From: Actinomycetes bacterium
GTDB taxonomy: Bacteria > Actinomycetota > Acidimicrobiia > Spongiisociales > UBA5794
Direction of reading: 5' to 3'
Assembly: GCA_023336815.1 (NCBI GenBank)
Contig: JAMBLJ010000164.1
Location: forward strand, 1-36,814
DNA length: 36,814 nucleotides
Positions within the stretch are counted from its first letter, which is position 1, and every line of letters starts with the position of its first letter. The notes under the pieces are model-generated. The model saw nothing but the letters and a program-made list of their open reading frames with translations, was not told where the DNA came from and did no database searches. Below, in pieces: positions 17,530 through 27,672 of this stretch. Both the position numbers and the translations under genes were made by a program.

Positions 17530-18291
17530 CTACGAGGCTGAATCGGCGACCTTGGGGATCATCAGGTACTGGAACGTAATGCATGCCGGTTCCTCGTCCT
17601 CGCAGTAGTAGGAATCGAACTGGAGCAGCACGTCGCGGTCCTCGCCGGTCCGGATAACGTACGTGTTTGGTTTCACACTTATGACGTGTCTGATGAACGA
17701 GTACTTGTACCAGCCGCCGATCTCCGGATTCTCTGGCTCATCCTCGTCTTCCCCTCCGAGTACATCGACGGCGAACGTGGCGAATTCTGGCGCCACCGCA
17801 TCAGTCAGGAGTACCTCGCCGAGATCGATCGCACCCCCTGGACCCGATGCGTTGGTCACGCCAGAGTTCGTGAGCAGGTTGGTCCGTTGGAGAGCGATGT
17901 CCCACGCTGGATCGGCAAAATCGCCGTGGACGACATCTCCCGTGTCGAAGTCGAACAGAATCCAGTCCTCCTTGCTTCGGGCATCAACGGTGTAGCGGAT
18001 CGGTTCGACCACGGGCTCCGCCAGACCGGCGGAGGGGAGATCGCTTTGGGGGCTATCTGCTTCGGCCATTGGAGGTTCGTCATCCGGTGACGCTTCGATG
18101 CTCGATCCTGCTGCGACGTCCGAGGGTCCAGAGGTGGCGTTGACGGTTGGCGCGAATCCCGCCGGCTTCGGCTGAGAGGTTCCCCATGCGTACATGCCTA
18201 CAGCGCCCAGTACCACCAGGGCAGGGATCCCGAGGAACCAGGTTCTCTTGTACTGCCACCATCGACGTTGTACATCTTCGATCCGTCTCAT
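17530..18291 (-). CDS. HmuY-like putative heme-binding protein, N-terminally membrane anchored
   Basis: N-terminal TM (TWFLGIPALVVLGAVGMYAWG); HmuY-type core DWILFDFDTGDVV...DPAWDIALQRTNLLTNSGVTNASGPGGA. Confidence 0.6.
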   Translation of the reverse strand: MRRIEDVQRRWWQYKRTWFLGIPALVVLGAVGMYAWGTSQPKPAGFAPTVNATSGPSDVAAGSSIEASPDDEPPMAEADSPQSDLPSAGLAEPVVEPIRYTVDARSKEDWILFDFDTGDVVHGDFADPAWDIALQRTNLLTNSGVTNASGPGGAIDLGEVLLTDAVAPEFATFAVDVLGGEDEDEPENPEIGGWYKYSFIRHVISVKPNTYVIRTGEDRDVLLQFDSYYCEDEEPACITFQYLMIPKVADSAS

Positions 18292-18480
18292 TACTGAGTT
18301 CCTTAGTACGGTATTCTGGAAATATACCACCGCTGTCCATCTGTGACTAGCGAAGACCGCCGATGTCGGTGCGTCCGGATCCTTGCCAGCGTCGCATGCG
18401 TGGCAGGTTCACGTCTGTAGCGCGCCATCACCGGACGACGAATGAGAGCCGAAGAGGGGGTGCTACAAACCTCAGGGGTG

Positions 18481-19113
18481 TCAGGTGATCAAGCCGAGCC
18501 TCATTGCAACGGCAACTGCCTCGGAGCGTCGTTGCACCCCGAGAGATGCATAGATACCGCGCAGTTTCGTCTTCGTTGTGGCTCCGCTGATGGATAGTGC
18601 TGTCGCTATCGCGGCGTTATCAGCTCCGTCGGCTAGGAGCTGCAGCATCTGAATCTGCTCGACTGTCATATCGCCGACGGGACCAACGGGATCGATTCCG
18701 ACCATCCTCGAGACGAGGGGACCGCTCACTTCTGCCTGAAAGTAGTTCTTGCCACGTGCCACGGTTTCGATTGCAGTCACCAACTCGTCCTGGCCGACAC
18801 TCTTGAGAACGTACCCTGATGCTCCAAGTTCGATCGCTCTGCTGACGTAGACAGGATCACCGTACATGCTCAGCATGAGCACGCCGACTTGTATTCCGAG
18901 TTCGGTGATGCGGGCCAGGATCTCGAGACCCGTCATGTTCGGCATTCGGACATCGAGCAACACGACGTCAACCTCGCTGGTTTCGAGTAGCTGTATCAGG
19001 GCGGGACCGTCTTCGGCCTGGCCCACGATCTCGATGTGCTCTGCTGACGCGAGAATGAGGTCGAGCCCTTCACGGATGATCCTGTGGTCATCAGCGATTG
19101 CGATCCTGATCAT
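18481..19113 (-). CDS. NarL/LuxR-type response regulator
   Basis: REC IRIAIADDHRIIREGL...VDVVLLDVRMPNMTGLE; divergent C-terminal HTH DNAAIATALSISGATTKTKLRGIYASLGVQRRSEAVAVA. Confidence 0.88.
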   Translation of the reverse strand: MIRIAIADDHRIIREGLDLILASAEHIEIVGQAEDGPALIQLLETSEVDVVLLDVRMPNMTGLEILARITELGIQVGVLMLSMYGDPVYVSRAIELGASGYVLKSVGQDELVTAIETVARGKNYFQAEVSGPLVSRMVGIDPVGPVGDMTVEQIQMLQLLADGADNAAIATALSISGATTKTKLRGIYASLGVQRRSEAVAVAMRLGLIT

Positions 19114-20447
19114 TCCGCGTGCTCGCCTCCGTTGGGAACCCAGGCGACGAACCGTGTGCCGCCACCCCTGGCATCGGATACCAGGATACCGCCTCCGATG
19201 GCCTCGAGCCGATCGCGGGTCGTCGTCAGACCCAGGCCGGGAGGGCCCATCGTACCCGAGCCGTTGTCAACCACCTCGATCATCGTCGAGTCCCCTCCCT
19301 CAACGAGACGGACCATGACCGTGTCGGCGTGGGCGTGACGGCCGACGTTGGTGAGAGCTTCCTTTGTTGCGCTGTACAACGTTGCCCGATGTGCAAGCGG
19401 CAGGACCGCATCGACGTCGGCTATGAAATCGATGTCGAGATCTGTTTCTCCTTCGACCACCTCGACCAACTCAATAAGGGCAGATTCGAGATCGATCTCT
19501 ACTCCCGGTTCCTGTCGGAGAGCTGTCAGTTCCGATCGCAACGTTGTATCGACGTCTCGCACGAGTTGGTCGAGTTTGGTCAACTCGTCGTCAACTGGTG
19601 ATCCGGGCTCGATCATGCCTTTACTCGCCTGGAGACCGAACATGATCCTGTACAGCGGCTGGCCGATGTCGTCATGCAGTGAGCCGACAATGCGGGTTCG
19701 CTCCTTCTCACGAACCTCGATGAGCTGGCCTATCAACCTCCGTGACCGGTCTCGCCGGTCCTTCTCGACGCGCGCGTTGGTCACAGCGGCGGCACCAAGC
19801 GCACCGAGGAGGACGATTGCCCCTATGCCGAGTGCCACCCAGATCGCATATCGAATCTCGTCGACTGTATCAACGACGTGTGCAGCGAGTTCGTACACCT
19901 CGAATACGATCTCGATACCCTGTGAGCCACTATCGACAGGGACGTAGTACTCCCGTAGATCCCCGAGGTCCCGCTCGTAGACGTTCTCCGTCCGCGAGAG
20001 ATCGGGCTCCTCGTAGATCACCTCCCCACTGAACGCGGCGAGCAGATCGTCTGACATTTCAAAGGTGAGGCCGATGAGTCGCGCCTCATCCGAAACGATT
20101 ATGGTTCCCGTCCGATCCCATATCTTCACACGAACGATCTCCCGTCCGAGTAGGGAGTGTTCCACTTCTGTTTGGAGCTTCTCGACGTCCTGAGCGTTGA
20201 GGCTGTCACTCGGTCGGATCGATTCTGCAATGTCGTTTACGGTCGTCTGGATCGACTCTGCGGTACCGGCGAGGAGGTGTCGCTCAACGATGCCGGGGAT
20301 GATGATCGCGAGTGCTACTGCGACGAGAAGCGACGCTATCGCGGCTATAGCCGCCGTAGTGCCCACGGGACCGAGACGAAGTCCTCTGGCCTCCGACACT
20401 TCGAGTGGAGGCCGGACCTTCGATGCTTCTTCACGTTCGCGCTCCAT
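19110..20447 (-). CDS. membrane sensor histidine kinase (NarX/HisKA_3 type)
   Basis: Two TM segments flanking an extracytoplasmic sensor; VGSLHDDIGQPLYRIMFGLQ H-box; KEALTNVGRHAHADTV, DNGSGTMGPPGLGLTTTRDR; ATGA overlap with downstream regulator. Confidence 0.9.
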   Translation of the reverse strand: MEREREEASKVRPPLEVSEARGLRLGPVGTTAAIAAIASLLVAVALAIIIPGIVERHLLAGTAESIQTTVNDIAESIRPSDSLNAQDVEKLQTEVEHSLLGREIVRVKIWDRTGTIIVSDEARLIGLTFEMSDDLLAAFSGEVIYEEPDLSRTENVYERDLGDLREYYVPVDSGSQGIEIVFEVYELAAHVVDTVDEIRYAIWVALGIGAIVLLGALGAAAVTNARVEKDRRDRSRRLIGQLIEVREKERTRIVGSLHDDIGQPLYRIMFGLQASKGMIEPGSPVDDELTKLDQLVRDVDTTLRSELTALRQEPGVEIDLESALIELVEVVEGETDLDIDFIADVDAVLPLAHRATLYSATKEALTNVGRHAHADTVMVRLVEGGDSTMIEVVDNGSGTMGPPGLGLTTTRDRLEAIGGGILVSDARGGGTRFVAWVPNGGEHAE

Positions 20448-22546: not shown

Positions 22547-24127
22547 TCAGGCGATCTCGGCCCTTCGTTGTGCTCGCATGAGTCCGATGAGGAGACCATC
22601 CGAGACAGCGGTCCACGATGCATCGATGATGTTCTGGTGAACACCGATGCATCCCCACGACGAATCGGCATCGGCGTGTGTAGTCAGCACCCGGACTCGT
22701 GCGCTGGATCCCTCGGAACTGTCGAGATCCCTCACCCGGTAGTCGGTCAACTTGATGTCGTCGATCGATGGATAGGAGTCGCGCAGCGCCGCCCGCAAGG
22801 CGCGGTCCATCGCTGATACGGGTCCATCACCTTCGCGCGTGGAGACGATGCGCTGGTCACCGACGTGTGCCTTCACAGTCGCCTCAGCGATGACCTCACC
22901 GGCGCGTTGCTCTACGAAAACTCTGTAGGACTCGACCTCGAAGAGATCCTGCTCCCACCCGAGCGCTCGACGAGCGAGCAGCTCGAACGAGCCTCCAGCG
23001 GCCTCGAACTGATAGCCAGCATGTTCGTACTCCTTGATCGTGTCGACTATCCGCTGGGCATCCTCTGGTGTTAGATCGAGGCCGAACTCGGATGCCTTCG
23101 CAACAACAGTTGATCGACCCGCGAGTTCGGAAACGACCATGCGAGTTGTATTCCCGATGGTTGATGGGTCGAGGTGCTCGTAGGCATCGGATCGTTTTGC
23201 CAGGGCTGAGGTGTGCAATCCTGCCTTGTGGGTGAACGCGGATGAACCGACGTACGGGAGGTGAGGGTTCAGCGTGAGGTTGATCACCTCAGCGATGTGA
23301 TGCGACACGGTGGTGAGTCGGGACAATCTGTCCTCAGGAATCGATTCGACCCCCATCTTCAATGTGAGGTTCGGGATCACCGAGCACAGGTCGGCATTGC
23401 CGGTTCGCTCGCCGTACCCGTTGATACACCCCTGCACCTGGGTTACTCCTCCTTTCACGGCTGTAAGTGTGTTGCCGACTGCGAGACCTGAGTCGTTGTG
23501 GAAATGGCACCCGAAGGTTCCGTCCGGGATGCGTTCTGTCACCTCACCGATCGTGCGTTCGACTTCGTCAGTGAGGAAGCCACCGTTCGTGTCGCAGAGC
23601 ACCAGACGGCTCGCACCGGCCTCATGAGCAGCAGTCAGGATCGCCGTTGCCAGATCCGGGTTGGATCGATAGCCATCGAAGAAATGTTCAGCATCGAAGA
23701 ACACCTCGCGTCCTTCTGAACGGAAAAATGAAACCGTGTCCGCAACCATGGCGACCGCCTCGTCGTGGGACACCCGGAGCGCATGGTCGATGTGGTAGTC
23801 CCAGGCTTTGCCGACGAGACATACGGTGCCGGTGTCTGCGGCGAGTAGACGTTGTACCTGTTCGTCGTCGCCCGGCTTCACCCCGGCCCTTCGCGTCGAT
23901 CCGAACGCGACGAGTTGCGCCGTCTTCAGATCGAGTTCGGTGCGAGCCCTGGCGAAGAACTCGTCGTCCTTGGGGTTCGCCCCTGGCCAACCGCCCTCCA
24001 CATACGCAACGCCAAGATCATCGAGAAGACCGCAGATCGCGAGCTTGTCCTTTGCGGTGAGGGAGATCCCCTCCTGCTGCGTCCCGTCGCGTAGGGTCGT
24101 GTCGTAGATCTCAATTGCTTGTTTCAT
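22547..24127 (-). CDS. cimA: (R)-citramalate synthase
   Basis: IEIYDTTLRDGTQQEGISLTAKDKL, YVEGGWPGANPKD, FGCHFHNDSGLAVGNTLTAVKGGVTQVQGCINGYGERTGNADL; C-terminal LeuA-type regulatory domain. Confidence 0.92.
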   Translation of the reverse strand: MKQAIEIYDTTLRDGTQQEGISLTAKDKLAICGLLDDLGVAYVEGGWPGANPKDDEFFARARTELDLKTAQLVAFGSTRRAGVKPGDDEQVQRLLAADTGTVCLVGKAWDYHIDHALRVSHDEAVAMVADTVSFFRSEGREVFFDAEHFFDGYRSNPDLATAILTAAHEAGASRLVLCDTNGGFLTDEVERTIGEVTERIPDGTFGCHFHNDSGLAVGNTLTAVKGGVTQVQGCINGYGERTGNADLCSVIPNLTLKMGVESIPEDRLSRLTTVSHHIAEVINLTLNPHLPYVGSSAFTHKAGLHTSALAKRSDAYEHLDPSTIGNTTRMVVSELAGRSTVVAKASEFGLDLTPEDAQRIVDTIKEYEHAGYQFEAAGGSFELLARRALGWEQDLFEVESYRVFVEQRAGEVIAEATVKAHVGDQRIVSTREGDGPVSAMDRALRAALRDSYPSIDDIKLTDYRVRDLDSSEGSSARVRVLTTHADADSSWGCIGVHQNIIDASWTAVSDGLLIGLMRAQRRAEIA

Positions 24128-24146
24128 CGTGTGTCCTTCAACGGAA

Positions 24147-24169
24147 GAACCCTCCACGAGGGAGGGTTC
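24147..24169 (-). promoter_or_regulatory. terminator-like hairpin in the cimA 5' leader
   Basis: Minus strand GAACCCTCC-CTCGT-GGAGGGTTC, 9-bp perfect stem. Confidence 0.65.
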
Positions 24170-24173
24170 ACAA

Positions 24174-24198
24174 GCGCACACGTCTGTGACGTGTACGC
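24174..24198 (-). promoter_or_regulatory. pause-like hairpin abutting the leader peptide stop codon
   Basis: Minus strand GCGTACACGT-CACAG-ACGTGTGCGC, 10 bp including one U.G; begins the base after TAG. Confidence 0.6.
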
Positions 24199-24237
24199 CT
24201 AGGTGATAATGATGGCTGTGGCCGAATGCGTGTTCAT
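24199..24237 (-). CDS. putative isoleucine attenuation leader peptide MNTHSATAIIIT
   Basis: ATG AAC ACG CAT TCG GCC ACA GCC ATC ATT ATC ACC TAG immediately upstream of two hairpins and cimA. Confidence 0.65.
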   Translation of the reverse strand: MNTHSATAIIIT

Positions 24238-24246
24238 CTTGTACCG

Positions 24247-24275
24247 AGTATGCACCATGATCCGGCCGAGGTCAA
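24247..24275 (-). promoter_or_regulatory. candidate sigma70-type promoter for leader-cimA (TTGACC-N17-CATACT)
   Basis: -35 TTGACC (24270-24275) and -10 CATACT (24247-24252) with 17-bp spacer; predicted start only a few nt before the leader ATG. Confidence 0.55.
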
Positions 24276-24329
24276 AGCGAGACATTCCCCGACAGGGGTG
24301 ATCTGGCTGCCCTGTAGTGTTGCGGTCGT

Positions 24330-24923
24330 ATGGATGAATCACTTTCGGAGATACCCGATCCGATGGGTCGTCAGGAGCGCAGTATCGCTTTCGTGCCAGG
24401 GTCTCGCCGCGCAGATTCTGTAAATGTGGCTCTTGCCGAGCTCTCAGCGGCGATCGCAACAGATCTTGGTTGTGTTGCGACGGTGGTGCACCTCGATGAT
24501 TTCGCGATGCCCATGTACGACGGTGACTGTGAGGACGAGGTCGGTGTACCCGATGCCGCCGCGAGGCTTCACGACGTGCTCGTTGCTTCTGAGATCGTCG
24601 TTTTGGTGAGTCCTGAGTACAACGGTGCGCCCACGCCACTCCTCAAGAACGCGATCGACTGGGTGACGAGGGTCTCGAAGCGTCCGCTTGAGAACAAGAC
24701 CGTCGGACTCATGAGCGCGACGCCCGGTTCCGGAGGAGGCACATCGGGCCTGAAGGTGCTGTCGGTGATCATGGCTTCCCTGAGGGTGAACCATGAGGTC
24801 CCCCCACTTGGTGTTGGGAAGGCGCGGTCACGTATCGCTGATAACGATCCCGTTCTGCGGGACGAGATCGAACGGTTCGTGAGTTCACTTCTCGTCGCGT
24901 CCGCGGGTAACGTTCCGGCGTGA
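24330..24923 (+). CDS. NADPH-dependent FMN reductase family protein
   Basis: IAFVPGSRRADSVNVALAELSA, VLVSPEYNGAPTPLLKNAIDWVTR. Confidence 0.88.
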   Translation: MDESLSEIPDPMGRQERSIAFVPGSRRADSVNVALAELSAAIATDLGCVATVVHLDDFAMPMYDGDCEDEVGVPDAAARLHDVLVASEIVVLVSPEYNGAPTPLLKNAIDWVTRVSKRPLENKTVGLMSATPGSGGGTSGLKVLSVIMASLRVNHEVPPLGVGKARSRIADNDPVLRDEIERFVSSLLVASAGNVPA

Positions 24924-24961: not shown

Positions 24962-25981
24962 ATGAACCTCTGTGAGGAGAACACCTTGACCGCAACAGCC
25001 AGGCAGCGCATCTTCTCGGGTGTACAGCCAACGGGCAACATACACCTTGGCAACTATCTCGGCGCGTTCCGGAACTGGGTAGAACTCCAGGATTCATTCG
25101 AGACTATCTACTGCATCGTCGACCTCCATGCGATGACGGTGGACTACGAACCGGGGAAACTCGAGGCTGCACGAATCGACACTGCCAGGATCTTGCTCGC
25201 TCTTGGTGTCGATCCTGAGAGGTCGCTGTTGTATACCCAGAGCCAGGTGCCTGGACATGCAGAACTCGCTTGGATACTCGGCACGATGACCCCCATGGGT
25301 GTGCTGAATCGCATGACCCAGTTCAAGGACAAGACAGAAATGGGATCCTCTCCGAATCTCGGTCTCTACTCCTACCCGGTGTTGATGGCAGCGGACATCT
25401 TGCTGTACAGAGCCAACCTCGTTCCGATTGGGGATGATCAGCGTCAGCACATGGAGATGACGAGGGATCTTGCCGAACGATTCAACAACCGGTTCGGAGA
25501 CGTGTTCCCGATACCCGAGGGGTACTTTCCGGAGGTGTCGTCACGGGTGATGTCGCTGACAGAGCCGCACAATAAGATGTCGAAATCGGACCCCCAGATC
25601 AAATCCAGGGTTGCGATCCTCGATGACCCCGATGTGATTCGGAAACGGATCCGATCAGCCGTCACGGACAGTGATCCCGAGGTCCGGTACGACATCGATC
25701 AGAAGCCTGGCATCTCGAACCTGCTTGAGATCATGGCAGCGTGTACACGGCGCTCGGTCGATGATCTTGTCGAAGAGCACGCGAACGGTGGCTACGGGGC
25801 GTTCAAGGATGCCGTGGCCGATGCGGTGGTCGAGGAGCTTGCGCCCTTCAAGACTGCGTACAAGGCCCTCAACAACGGTGACGTCCGACAGGTACTCCAC
25901 GATGCCGGTGTCGAGGCTCGAGATATGGCATCCTCGTACATGCGCGAAGTGCACAAGGTGATCGGCGTTAAGAGGTACTGA
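24962..25981 (+). CDS. trpS: tryptophan-tRNA ligase (true start may be TTG at 24986)
   Basis: RIFSGVQPTGNIHLGNYLGAF, KMSKS motif (HNKMSKSDP); GAGGAG spaced properly for the TTG at 24986. Confidence 0.96.
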   Translation: MNLCEENTLTATARQRIFSGVQPTGNIHLGNYLGAFRNWVELQDSFETIYCIVDLHAMTVDYEPGKLEAARIDTARILLALGVDPERSLLYTQSQVPGHAELAWILGTMTPMGVLNRMTQFKDKTEMGSSPNLGLYSYPVLMAADILLYRANLVPIGDDQRQHMEMTRDLAERFNNRFGDVFPIPEGYFPEVSSRVMSLTEPHNKMSKSDPQIKSRVAILDDPDVIRKRIRSAVTDSDPEVRYDIDQKPGISNLLEIMAACTRRSVDDLVEEHANGGYGAFKDAVADAVVEELAPFKTAYKALNNGDVRQVLHDAGVEARDMASSYMREVHKVIGVKRY

Positions 25982-27672
25982 TGAGCACAACAAGCGAGAG
26001 ACTGATCAGCTGCGTTCCGAATTTCAGCGAGGGCCGCGACCAAGACGTCATCGACGCCATCACGGACCGAATCGAAGCCGTTGATGGCGTGAAGTTGCTC
26101 GATGTCGACCCCGGCTACGCAACCAACCGAACGGTCGTCACCTTCGTTGGTACCCCCGAGGCCGTCATCGATGCAGCCGTTATCGCTGGGGCCAAAGCGG
26201 CCGAACTGATCGATATGGCGGCGCACTCGGGCGAACACCCTCGTTTCGGTGCGATGGATGTGTGCCCGCTTGTTCCGGTGTCCGGTGTCACCATGGACGA
26301 AGCCGCGGCGTACGCTCGCACGCTGGCTGCTCGGCTTGGTGATGAGGTTGGTCTCACCGTCTATTGCTACGAGAACGCCGCAACGTGCCCCGAGCGCCGC
26401 AACCTCGCAGATGTCCGGGAGGGAGAGTACGAAGGCCTCGCCGCACGCCTCGCAGATCCAGCGTGGGAACCTGACTTCGGTCCGAAGGTGTTCAACGCTC
26501 GTTCAGGTGCTACCGCCGTTGGGGCACGCGGGTTCCTTGTCGCGTACAACATCAATCTCAACACGACATCGACGAGACGTGCGAACGCGATCGCATACGA
26601 CGTACGTGAGCGGGGACGGGTGAAACGAACCGGCGATCCCGTCACAGGAGAGATCGTTCTGGACGACAATGGCGACAAGGTGTGGACACCAGGATCCCTG
26701 AAAGGTGTCAAGGCGATCGGCTGGTACATCGAGGAGTACGGGGTTGCTCAGATATCGATGAATATCACCGACATCGATGCCACACCGGTACACGTGGCTT
26801 TCGACGAGGTGTGCGACCGTGCAAGTGATCGCGGCATCCGGGTCACCGGTTCGGAGCTCGTTGGTTTGATGCCCCTCCAGGCGGTTCTGGACGCGGGTCG
26901 TTATTTCTTGCGCAAGCAGAAGCGGTCCACAGGTGTGTCCGATGCCGAACTGATCAAGATCGCTGTGAAGTCTCTCGGTCTCGATGAGCTCGGCAGATTC
27001 GACCCCGCCGACAAGATCATCGAGTACGCCATCGATGACAGTTCCGACCGGCTTGTTGACCTGACCGTGCGACGGTTCGTCGAGGAGACAGCATCCGAAT
27101 CCGTTGCACCGGGCGGCGGTTCCGTTGCAGCCAACCTCGGTGCCCTCGGTGCGGCGCTCGGCACGATGGTGGCGAACCTGTCTTCTCACAAACGTGGATG
27201 GGATGACCGGTGGGAGGAGTTCTCGGACTGGGCAGACAGAGGCAAGACCTGTCATGACGAATTCCTGACCCTCATCGACAGGGACACCGATGCTTTCAAC
27301 GACATCATGGCCGCGCTCGGTATGCCCGGGGGCGACGACGCCGAGAACAAGGCACGGGATGAGGCGCTCCAGGCGGCAACCCGTCAAGCGATCGATGTCC
27401 CGATGCGGGTGATGGAAGTGAGCCTCGCATCGATGGAGGTCATCCATGCAATGGCAGAGATCGGCAATCCGGCATCTGTATCGGATGCCGGTGTTGGTGC
27501 ATTGTGCGCCCGCTCCGCCGTCATGGGCGCATATCTCAACGTTCGCATCAACGTACCCGGTCTCACCGATGGGGACGCTGCGAGTGCGTATCTCGAACGA
27601 GGCAGGGCCATCCAGGAGAAGGCGATCGCTGCGGAAGCAGCCATTCTGGCGATCGTGGATTCCAGAATCTGA
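25981..27672 (+). CDS. bifunctional glutamate formimidoyltransferase / formimidoyltetrahydrofolate cyclodeaminase
   Basis: N-terminal ISCVPNFSEGRD...AAHSGEHPRFGAMDVCPLVPV; C-terminal cyclodeaminase SVAPGGGSVAANLGALGAALGTMVANLS. Confidence 0.93.
   Translation: MSTTSERLISCVPNFSEGRDQDVIDAITDRIEAVDGVKLLDVDPGYATNRTVVTFVGTPEAVIDAAVIAGAKAAELIDMAAHSGEHPRFGAMDVCPLVPVSGVTMDEAAAYARTLAARLGDEVGLTVYCYENAATCPERRNLADVREGEYEGLAARLADPAWEPDFGPKVFNARSGATAVGARGFLVAYNINLNTTSTRRANAIAYDVRERGRVKRTGDPVTGEIVLDDNGDKVWTPGSLKGVKAIGWYIEEYGVAQISMNITDIDATPVHVAFDEVCDRASDRGIRVTGSELVGLMPLQAVLDAGRYFLRKQKRSTGVSDAELIKIAVKSLGLDELGRFDPADKIIEYAIDDSSDRLVDLTVRRFVEETASESVAPGGGSVAANLGALGAALGTMVANLSSHKRGWDDRWEEFSDWADRGKTCHDEFLTLIDRDTDAFNDIMAALGMPGGDDAENKARDEALQAATRQAIDVPMRVMEVSLASMEVIHAMAEIGNPASVSDAGVGALCARSAVMGAYLNVRINVPGLTDGDAASAYLERGRAIQEKAIAAEAAILAIVDSRI

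Follow-up and report, generated by a model that had tools for sequence, protein, structure and literature searches.

Branched-chain leader-peptide attenuation is known in Actinobacteria for ilvB (PMC1262725, PMC10272879, PMC11857589, PMC13236596). In the ilvBNC attenuator of C. glutamicum and the Corynebacterium ilvB-II motif (PMC11857589, PMC10272879), the branched-chain leader peptide begins one or a few nucleotides from the transcript start and there are two main hairpins, the second being an intrinsic terminator; the first hairpin contains the uORF, and the antiterminator that has been proposed overlaps the terminator. The ilvB1 attenuator of M. tuberculosis (PMC13236596) has a leader peptide with mixed control codons (LVVI), a downstream intrinsic terminator and a predicted terminator/anti-terminator pair. 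Changing LVVI to AAAA abolishes its induction, which supports leader-codon-dependent termination in the phylum; on the other side, a leader codon swap in S. coelicolor ilvB, cited in PMC1262725, had no effect and counts against the attenuator reading. In that paper, Seliverstov et al. (2005) describe ilvB leaders of Actinobacteria together with the leuA LEU element: the leader peptides have runs of Ile/Val/Leu, terminators are present, and the remaining parts of an attenuator are reported as missing. In the LEU element, a pseudoknot, Leu codons pair to the Shine-Dalgarno (SD) sequence; cimA does not appear in the sections consulted. In E. coli, thrL and trpL carry control codons for the end product and an intrinsic terminator before the first gene, and the 5' arm of the terminator is sequestered when the ribosome is on the control codons. 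Control of the E. coli pyrBI type, as discussed in PMC4824070, needs no antiterminator: the ribosome itself prevents the terminator from folding, and its coupling to the polymerase at a terminator inside the leader-peptide gene is decisive.

The leader described here, upstream of the citramalate synthase gene cimA, shows two general features of a leader-peptide attenuator: a small ORF close to the transcript start in which end-product codons cluster, and a terminator between this ORF and the first gene. It shares with ilvBNC and ilvB-II the position of the leader peptide and the two main hairpins, but its control codons are Ile only, its target is cimA and we found no antiterminator. In addition, the uORF of the ilvB-II motif, which stands upstream of ilvB, covers most of the first hairpin, whereas here the uORF ends where the first hairpin starts, at the stop codon. 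The same three points, codons, target and antiterminator, separate it from M. tuberculosis ilvB1. The runs and terminators recall those of Seliverstov et al., but the LEU pseudoknot is absent: there is no Leu run, and pairing of the codon region to the SD region does not exceed that of shuffled sequence. The arrangement is the reverse of that of trp, as the first hairpin of the cimA leader would stay folded under stall, and we found neither an exclusive antiterminator helix nor a control-codon ribosome blocking the 5' arm of that hairpin. Because a defining feature tested for each was missing, we do not class the cimA leader as an ilvB-II motif, a LEU element or a trp type. The proposal made below is closest to pyrBI in dispensing with an antiterminator, but in the cimA leader more than 20 nt separate the end of the ORF from the terminator, and the signal would be a stall on Ile codons.

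The element is apparently a leader-peptide attenuator whose new traits are the cimA target, control codons for a single amino acid, a first hairpin anchored at the stop codon and no detectable antiterminator; the citramalate route to isoleucine would join the pathways apparently governed by leader peptides. An earlier, sequence-only reading of this DNA knew of no description of attenuation for cimA, and we too found no account of it in the open-access literature, an absence that is weak evidence since most subscription papers lie outside that scope. At the gathering score, no family of Rfam 15 (T-box, riboswitch, ilvB-OMG and others) matched any of 25 loci; of the scans run in E-value mode, one gave only a sub-threshold P9 match (24.5 bits, gathering score 43), taken as chance, and another gave nothing.

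The leader region of cimA and its conservation

The window, that is, the whole 36,814-nucleotide stretch of DNA analysed, belongs to a metagenome-assembled genome of 299 contigs. All the features of the leader lie on the minus strand. The promoter-like boxes of the sequence-only reading are present: a −35 box TTGACC (24270-24275) and, 17 bp away, a −10 box CATACT (24247-24252), and TTGAC-N17-CATACT recurs 5' of the mini-ORF in relatives. With these boxes the cimA transcript would start near 24240 and have a 5' UTR of a few nucleotides only; the −10 box lies 6-11 nt from the leader start codon in most cimA leaders (median 9). The near-leaderless leader-peptide ORF, MNTHSATAIIIT (24199-24237), has 12 codons, starts with ATG at 24237 and carries the control codons ATC ATT ATC, then ACC and the stop TAG (24201-24199), exactly as read before. 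The following hairpin had been given 10 bp and a start right after the stop; the hairpin exists (hairpin 1, 24171-24201), but it begins inside the stop codon, which lies at its base, and has 14 bp in the fold. Hairpin 2, the 9-bp stem of an intrinsic terminator (GAACCCUCC-CUCGU-GGAGGGUUC, 24147-24169, −15.0 kcal/mol), the cimA SD sequence GAAGGA (24134-24139) and cimA itself (22547-24127, ATG at 24127) follow in the order already proposed. The gene encodes a 526-aa citramalate synthase, an identification borne out by the TIGR00977 equivalog (646 bits, cut-off 450). The U-rich tail of the terminator, UUCCGUUG (24139-24146), is weak in the window.

The folding energy of the leader RNA is −44.6 kcal/mol, whereas shuffled sequence gives −28.9 kcal/mol (z −4.9), and none of 200 shuffles was as good. 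The two strands of the window hold 465 mini-ORF stop sites, of which only that of the cimA leader combines at least three Ile in the last five codons with a strong stop hairpin.

Some 50 bp (24276-24329) separate the cimA promoter from a divergent FMN-reductase-like gene (24330-24923), after which comes trpS. Elsewhere in the window, one 563-aa ORF (25981-27672) is a glutamate formimidoyltransferase fused to a cyclohydrolase (FTCD_C) domain, and an HmuY-like protein (17530-18330) adjoins a two-component pair (18481-20447).

Lack of the mini-ORF and the Ile run in relatives had been set beforehand as grounds for abandoning the attenuator reading. We ran this comparison on the loci of 48 named relatives (CimA identity of at least 57%), and in 37 of them cimA is directly preceded by the Ile run, a hairpin adjoining the stop and the terminator. 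The order of parts is promoter boxes, near-leaderless mini-ORF ending Ile-Ile-Ile-X-stop, stop hairpin, terminator and cimA. The first base of hairpin 1 is the last nucleotide of the stop codon in 33 of 47 distinct leaders, another position of the stop in 7 and the next nucleotide in 7, and in these leaders 1-7 nt separate hairpins 1 and 2. Hairpin 2 averages −16.4 kcal/mol in relatives, with a T-rich tail in nearly all, and U-runs are longer than in the window: the 8 nt after hairpin 2 contain 4-7 U in 45 of the 47 leaders. The earlier remark that no clear U-run follows hairpin 2 is thus right for the window but not for its relatives.

Covarying hairpins, which had been suggested as a check, were also found, with compensatory changes in both helices. 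In a sequence-only alignment, not fitted to the structure, both-side changes affect 13 of 19 pairs and amount to 47 cells, compared with 14.6 in shuffled alignments and at most 28 in slid structures; a larger, model-fitted alignment gave 181 such cells versus 40.5 shuffled. No relatives of CimA were found in viral contigs.

Control codons and distribution of the element

We grouped 156 extracted leaders by the next gene (solo cimA 82, ilvB 46, leuB 28), counts that overstate the independent evidence because related sequences are not independent. The Ile codons of the window's cimA leader had been matched to the end product of the cimA route, and across this set the codon content of the leader does track the downstream gene. 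The last six codons of the solo-cimA leaders contain 271 Ile, 10 Leu and 8 Val; those of the ilvB leaders, 103 Leu, 56 Val and 48 Ile; and those of the leuB leaders, 63 Ile, 41 Val and 4 Leu, a pattern that stays when distinct control stretches are counted. Within codons −6 to −2, 65/82 cimA leaders have three or more Ile and neither Val nor Leu, versus 0/46 ilvB leaders, and all 46 of the latter carry Val or Leu. The leuB operon goes on with ilvE in the two loci checked, and with cimA in one of them. The element stands before leuB-ilvE(-cimA) operons in other families of the class (L070, L238 and others in L236-L274), with Ile and Val codons.

A covariance model, R1, was trained on cimA leaders picked for their Ile codons, and its matches therefore lean towards the Ile form. 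In the order, 118 of 138 genomes gave one to three hits, and in the class 220 of 296 did. In the genome of the window the model finds two, the element before cimA and a second copy (G000:C12:5083-5168; 1584-1669 of locus L119) 5' of ilvB-ilvN-ilvC-leuA-leuB with the leader MIIENTLVLILS, so that both kinds of leader are present: IIIT for cimA and LVLILS for ilvBNC-leuAB. In family f1, two genomes whose only match to CimA is weak and LeuA-like (G005, G006) have a single copy, before ilvB. In other classes of the phylum (L276-L295), the matches inspected mostly show the layout before ilvB, with ...LVLI-X-TAG, and two copies lie before cimA (L290, L295), with leaders VTTTVIIT and MTSWHVATATVIID. 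In the leaders as a whole, what appears to be a single attenuator occurs in natural replicates with three amino-acid settings, and one genome holds two of the three.

Several minor features of the set may be recorded. Most genomes of family f8 of the order (G043, G050, G056 and others) are without the element, and the three that were checked have no good CimA match. The stop is TAG in 138/156 leaders versus 53/160 ordinary genes in relatives, and the final G of TAG is usually the first base of hairpin 1; in several of the L276-L295 loci the entire UAG is paired within hairpin 1. Rare codons are favoured as control codons, GTA making up 45 of 56 Val in ilvB leaders (~9% in genes) and ATT 85 of 270 Ile in cimA leaders (~14% in genes). 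An ilvB-like gene (57% identity) at L160 (G127:C66) has a leader of the Ile type, MNLDLIIIH, unlike other ilvB leaders, and is possibly a paralogue with another role. Finally, the title of one record, Bifidobacterium breve (L086), looks wrong, its cimA region being almost identical to the one carried by a Lake Baikal Acidimicrobiia bacterium (L092).

Search for an antiterminator and alternative explanations

For ilvB of C. glutamicum and M. tuberculosis, a mutually exclusive antiterminator has been proposed (PMC11857589, PMC13236596), and attenuation of cimA could likewise be classical if folding tests missed such a helix, for instance one that is protein-dependent, a pseudoknot or built of non-standard pairs. 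The sequence-only reading had already expressed doubt about the antitermination step, and we detected no competing pairing in any of the three leader sets. In segment-pair duplex tests, hairpins 1 and 2 alone clearly beat shuffled sequence, and the 3' arm of hairpin 1 against the 5' arm of the terminator scored no better and mostly worse than shuffled (z +0.76, +0.83 and +0.15). A region-wide test for competing pairings gave z values of +0.4 to +1.0, compared with −5.9 for E. coli thrL and −2.4 for trpL, the sensitivity of this test being incomplete, as ilvL and hisL gave no signal. Pairing of either hairpin arm with the SD region did not clearly exceed that of shuffled sequence.

We also folded, for each position of the ribosome, the RNA present before the 3' arm of the terminator is made. 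For E. coli thrL and trpL, the terminator 5' arm is ~60% paired when the ribosome occupies the control codons and almost free when it is at the stop, whereas in cimA leaders the paired fraction is 0.15-0.18 at the first Ile codons and 0.36 at the stop, the opposite trend. Equilibrium folding is uninformative as a test of switching, since the E. coli controls also always favour the terminator. Given that the pairing tests, though not perfect, yield no competing helix, a classical antiterminator is unlikely in these leaders, and we give little credit to one that escaped folding. This large comparative set lacking the textbook antiterminator makes the working of antiterminator-free actinobacterial branched-chain attenuators directly testable.

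Four specific candidates were rejected. The weak UCACAG/UUGUGA alternative pairing put forward earlier did not hold up, as anything similar is possible only in the window and its closest relative. Pairing of CGUGUG in hairpin 1 with CACACG before the cimA start is confined to the window and unconserved. A ribosomal frameshift on the Ile run that would take translation into the terminator was discarded because both alternative frames are open in ~80% of leaders, with no preference, and fusion of the leader to the cimA frame because distances from the leader stop to cimA are not kept modulo 3.

Control might instead be translational or linked to Rho, the leader governing cimA translation or Rho access and not intrinsic termination. 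Polycysteine leaderless ORFs have been reported as operon attenuators in mycobacteria (cited in PMC13236596), and the weak U-run of the window would suit such control; against it stand the strong hairpin 2 and T-rich tail of the relatives, as well as the arm-to-SD result above, and we regard it as improbable. A constitutive upstream terminator, next to a mini-ORF with another role or none and an incidental Ile run, can practically be set aside, because codon content shifts with the downstream gene across the 156 leaders and because codon −1 is rarely branched-chain while codons −2 to −4 nearly always are.

How the ribosome might control termination

From these comparisons of sequences, we put at roughly 80% the probability that the element is a ribosome-mediated, isoleucine-specific attenuator of cimA, and isoleucine leader-peptide attenuation, as first read, mostly holds. 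The set of parts is kept in more than 100 related genomes and its codons match the end product, which makes an isoleucine-sensing switch very probable. The parts, their conservation and covariation and the match of codons to genes were computed here, with no competing antiterminator detectable; we infer the sign of the response to isoleucine, and that the stalled ribosome itself would keep hairpin 2 from working.

In the attenuator that we propose, RNA polymerase would start a few nucleotides 5' of the 12-codon leader ORF. When charged tRNA-Ile is sufficient, the ribosome would clear the Ile codons, get to the stop and depart, and hairpin 2 would then stop transcription before cimA. When Ile-tRNA is scarce, the ribosome would stall on the Ile codons and transcription would run on into cimA, termination being controlled by the ribosome with no antiterminator. 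Since hairpin 1 starts at the stop codon, footprint arithmetic predicts that a ribosome stalled at codon −4 would leave it intact and that opening it would take a ribosome positioned on the stop or immediately beside it. Hairpin 1, while folded, may place the stalled ribosome close enough to act on the terminator.

A more general form of this proposal, which we advance as a conjecture, is that branched-chain attenuation is antiterminator-free across the phylum and that the stop-anchored hairpin acts as a folding ruler: when folded, the stalled ribosome would be near enough to block the terminator, and when opened, the ribosome would be too far. The codons would be Leu/Val/Ile for ilvB, Ile/Val for leuB-ilvE-cimA and Ile for solo cimA. 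The specific ruler step is equally tentative and draws on an analogy with an E. coli intrinsic terminator, which is repressed by a ribosome whose A site is less than 27 nt away (PMC4824070). The distances fit the ruler model, in a comparison made after the fact with a threshold from that one terminator: between the stop and hairpin 2 there are 27 nt or more in 96-98% of leaders (median ~31), and in 155 of 155 leaders a folded hairpin 1 leaves 15-26 unpaired nt between the first control codon and hairpin 2.
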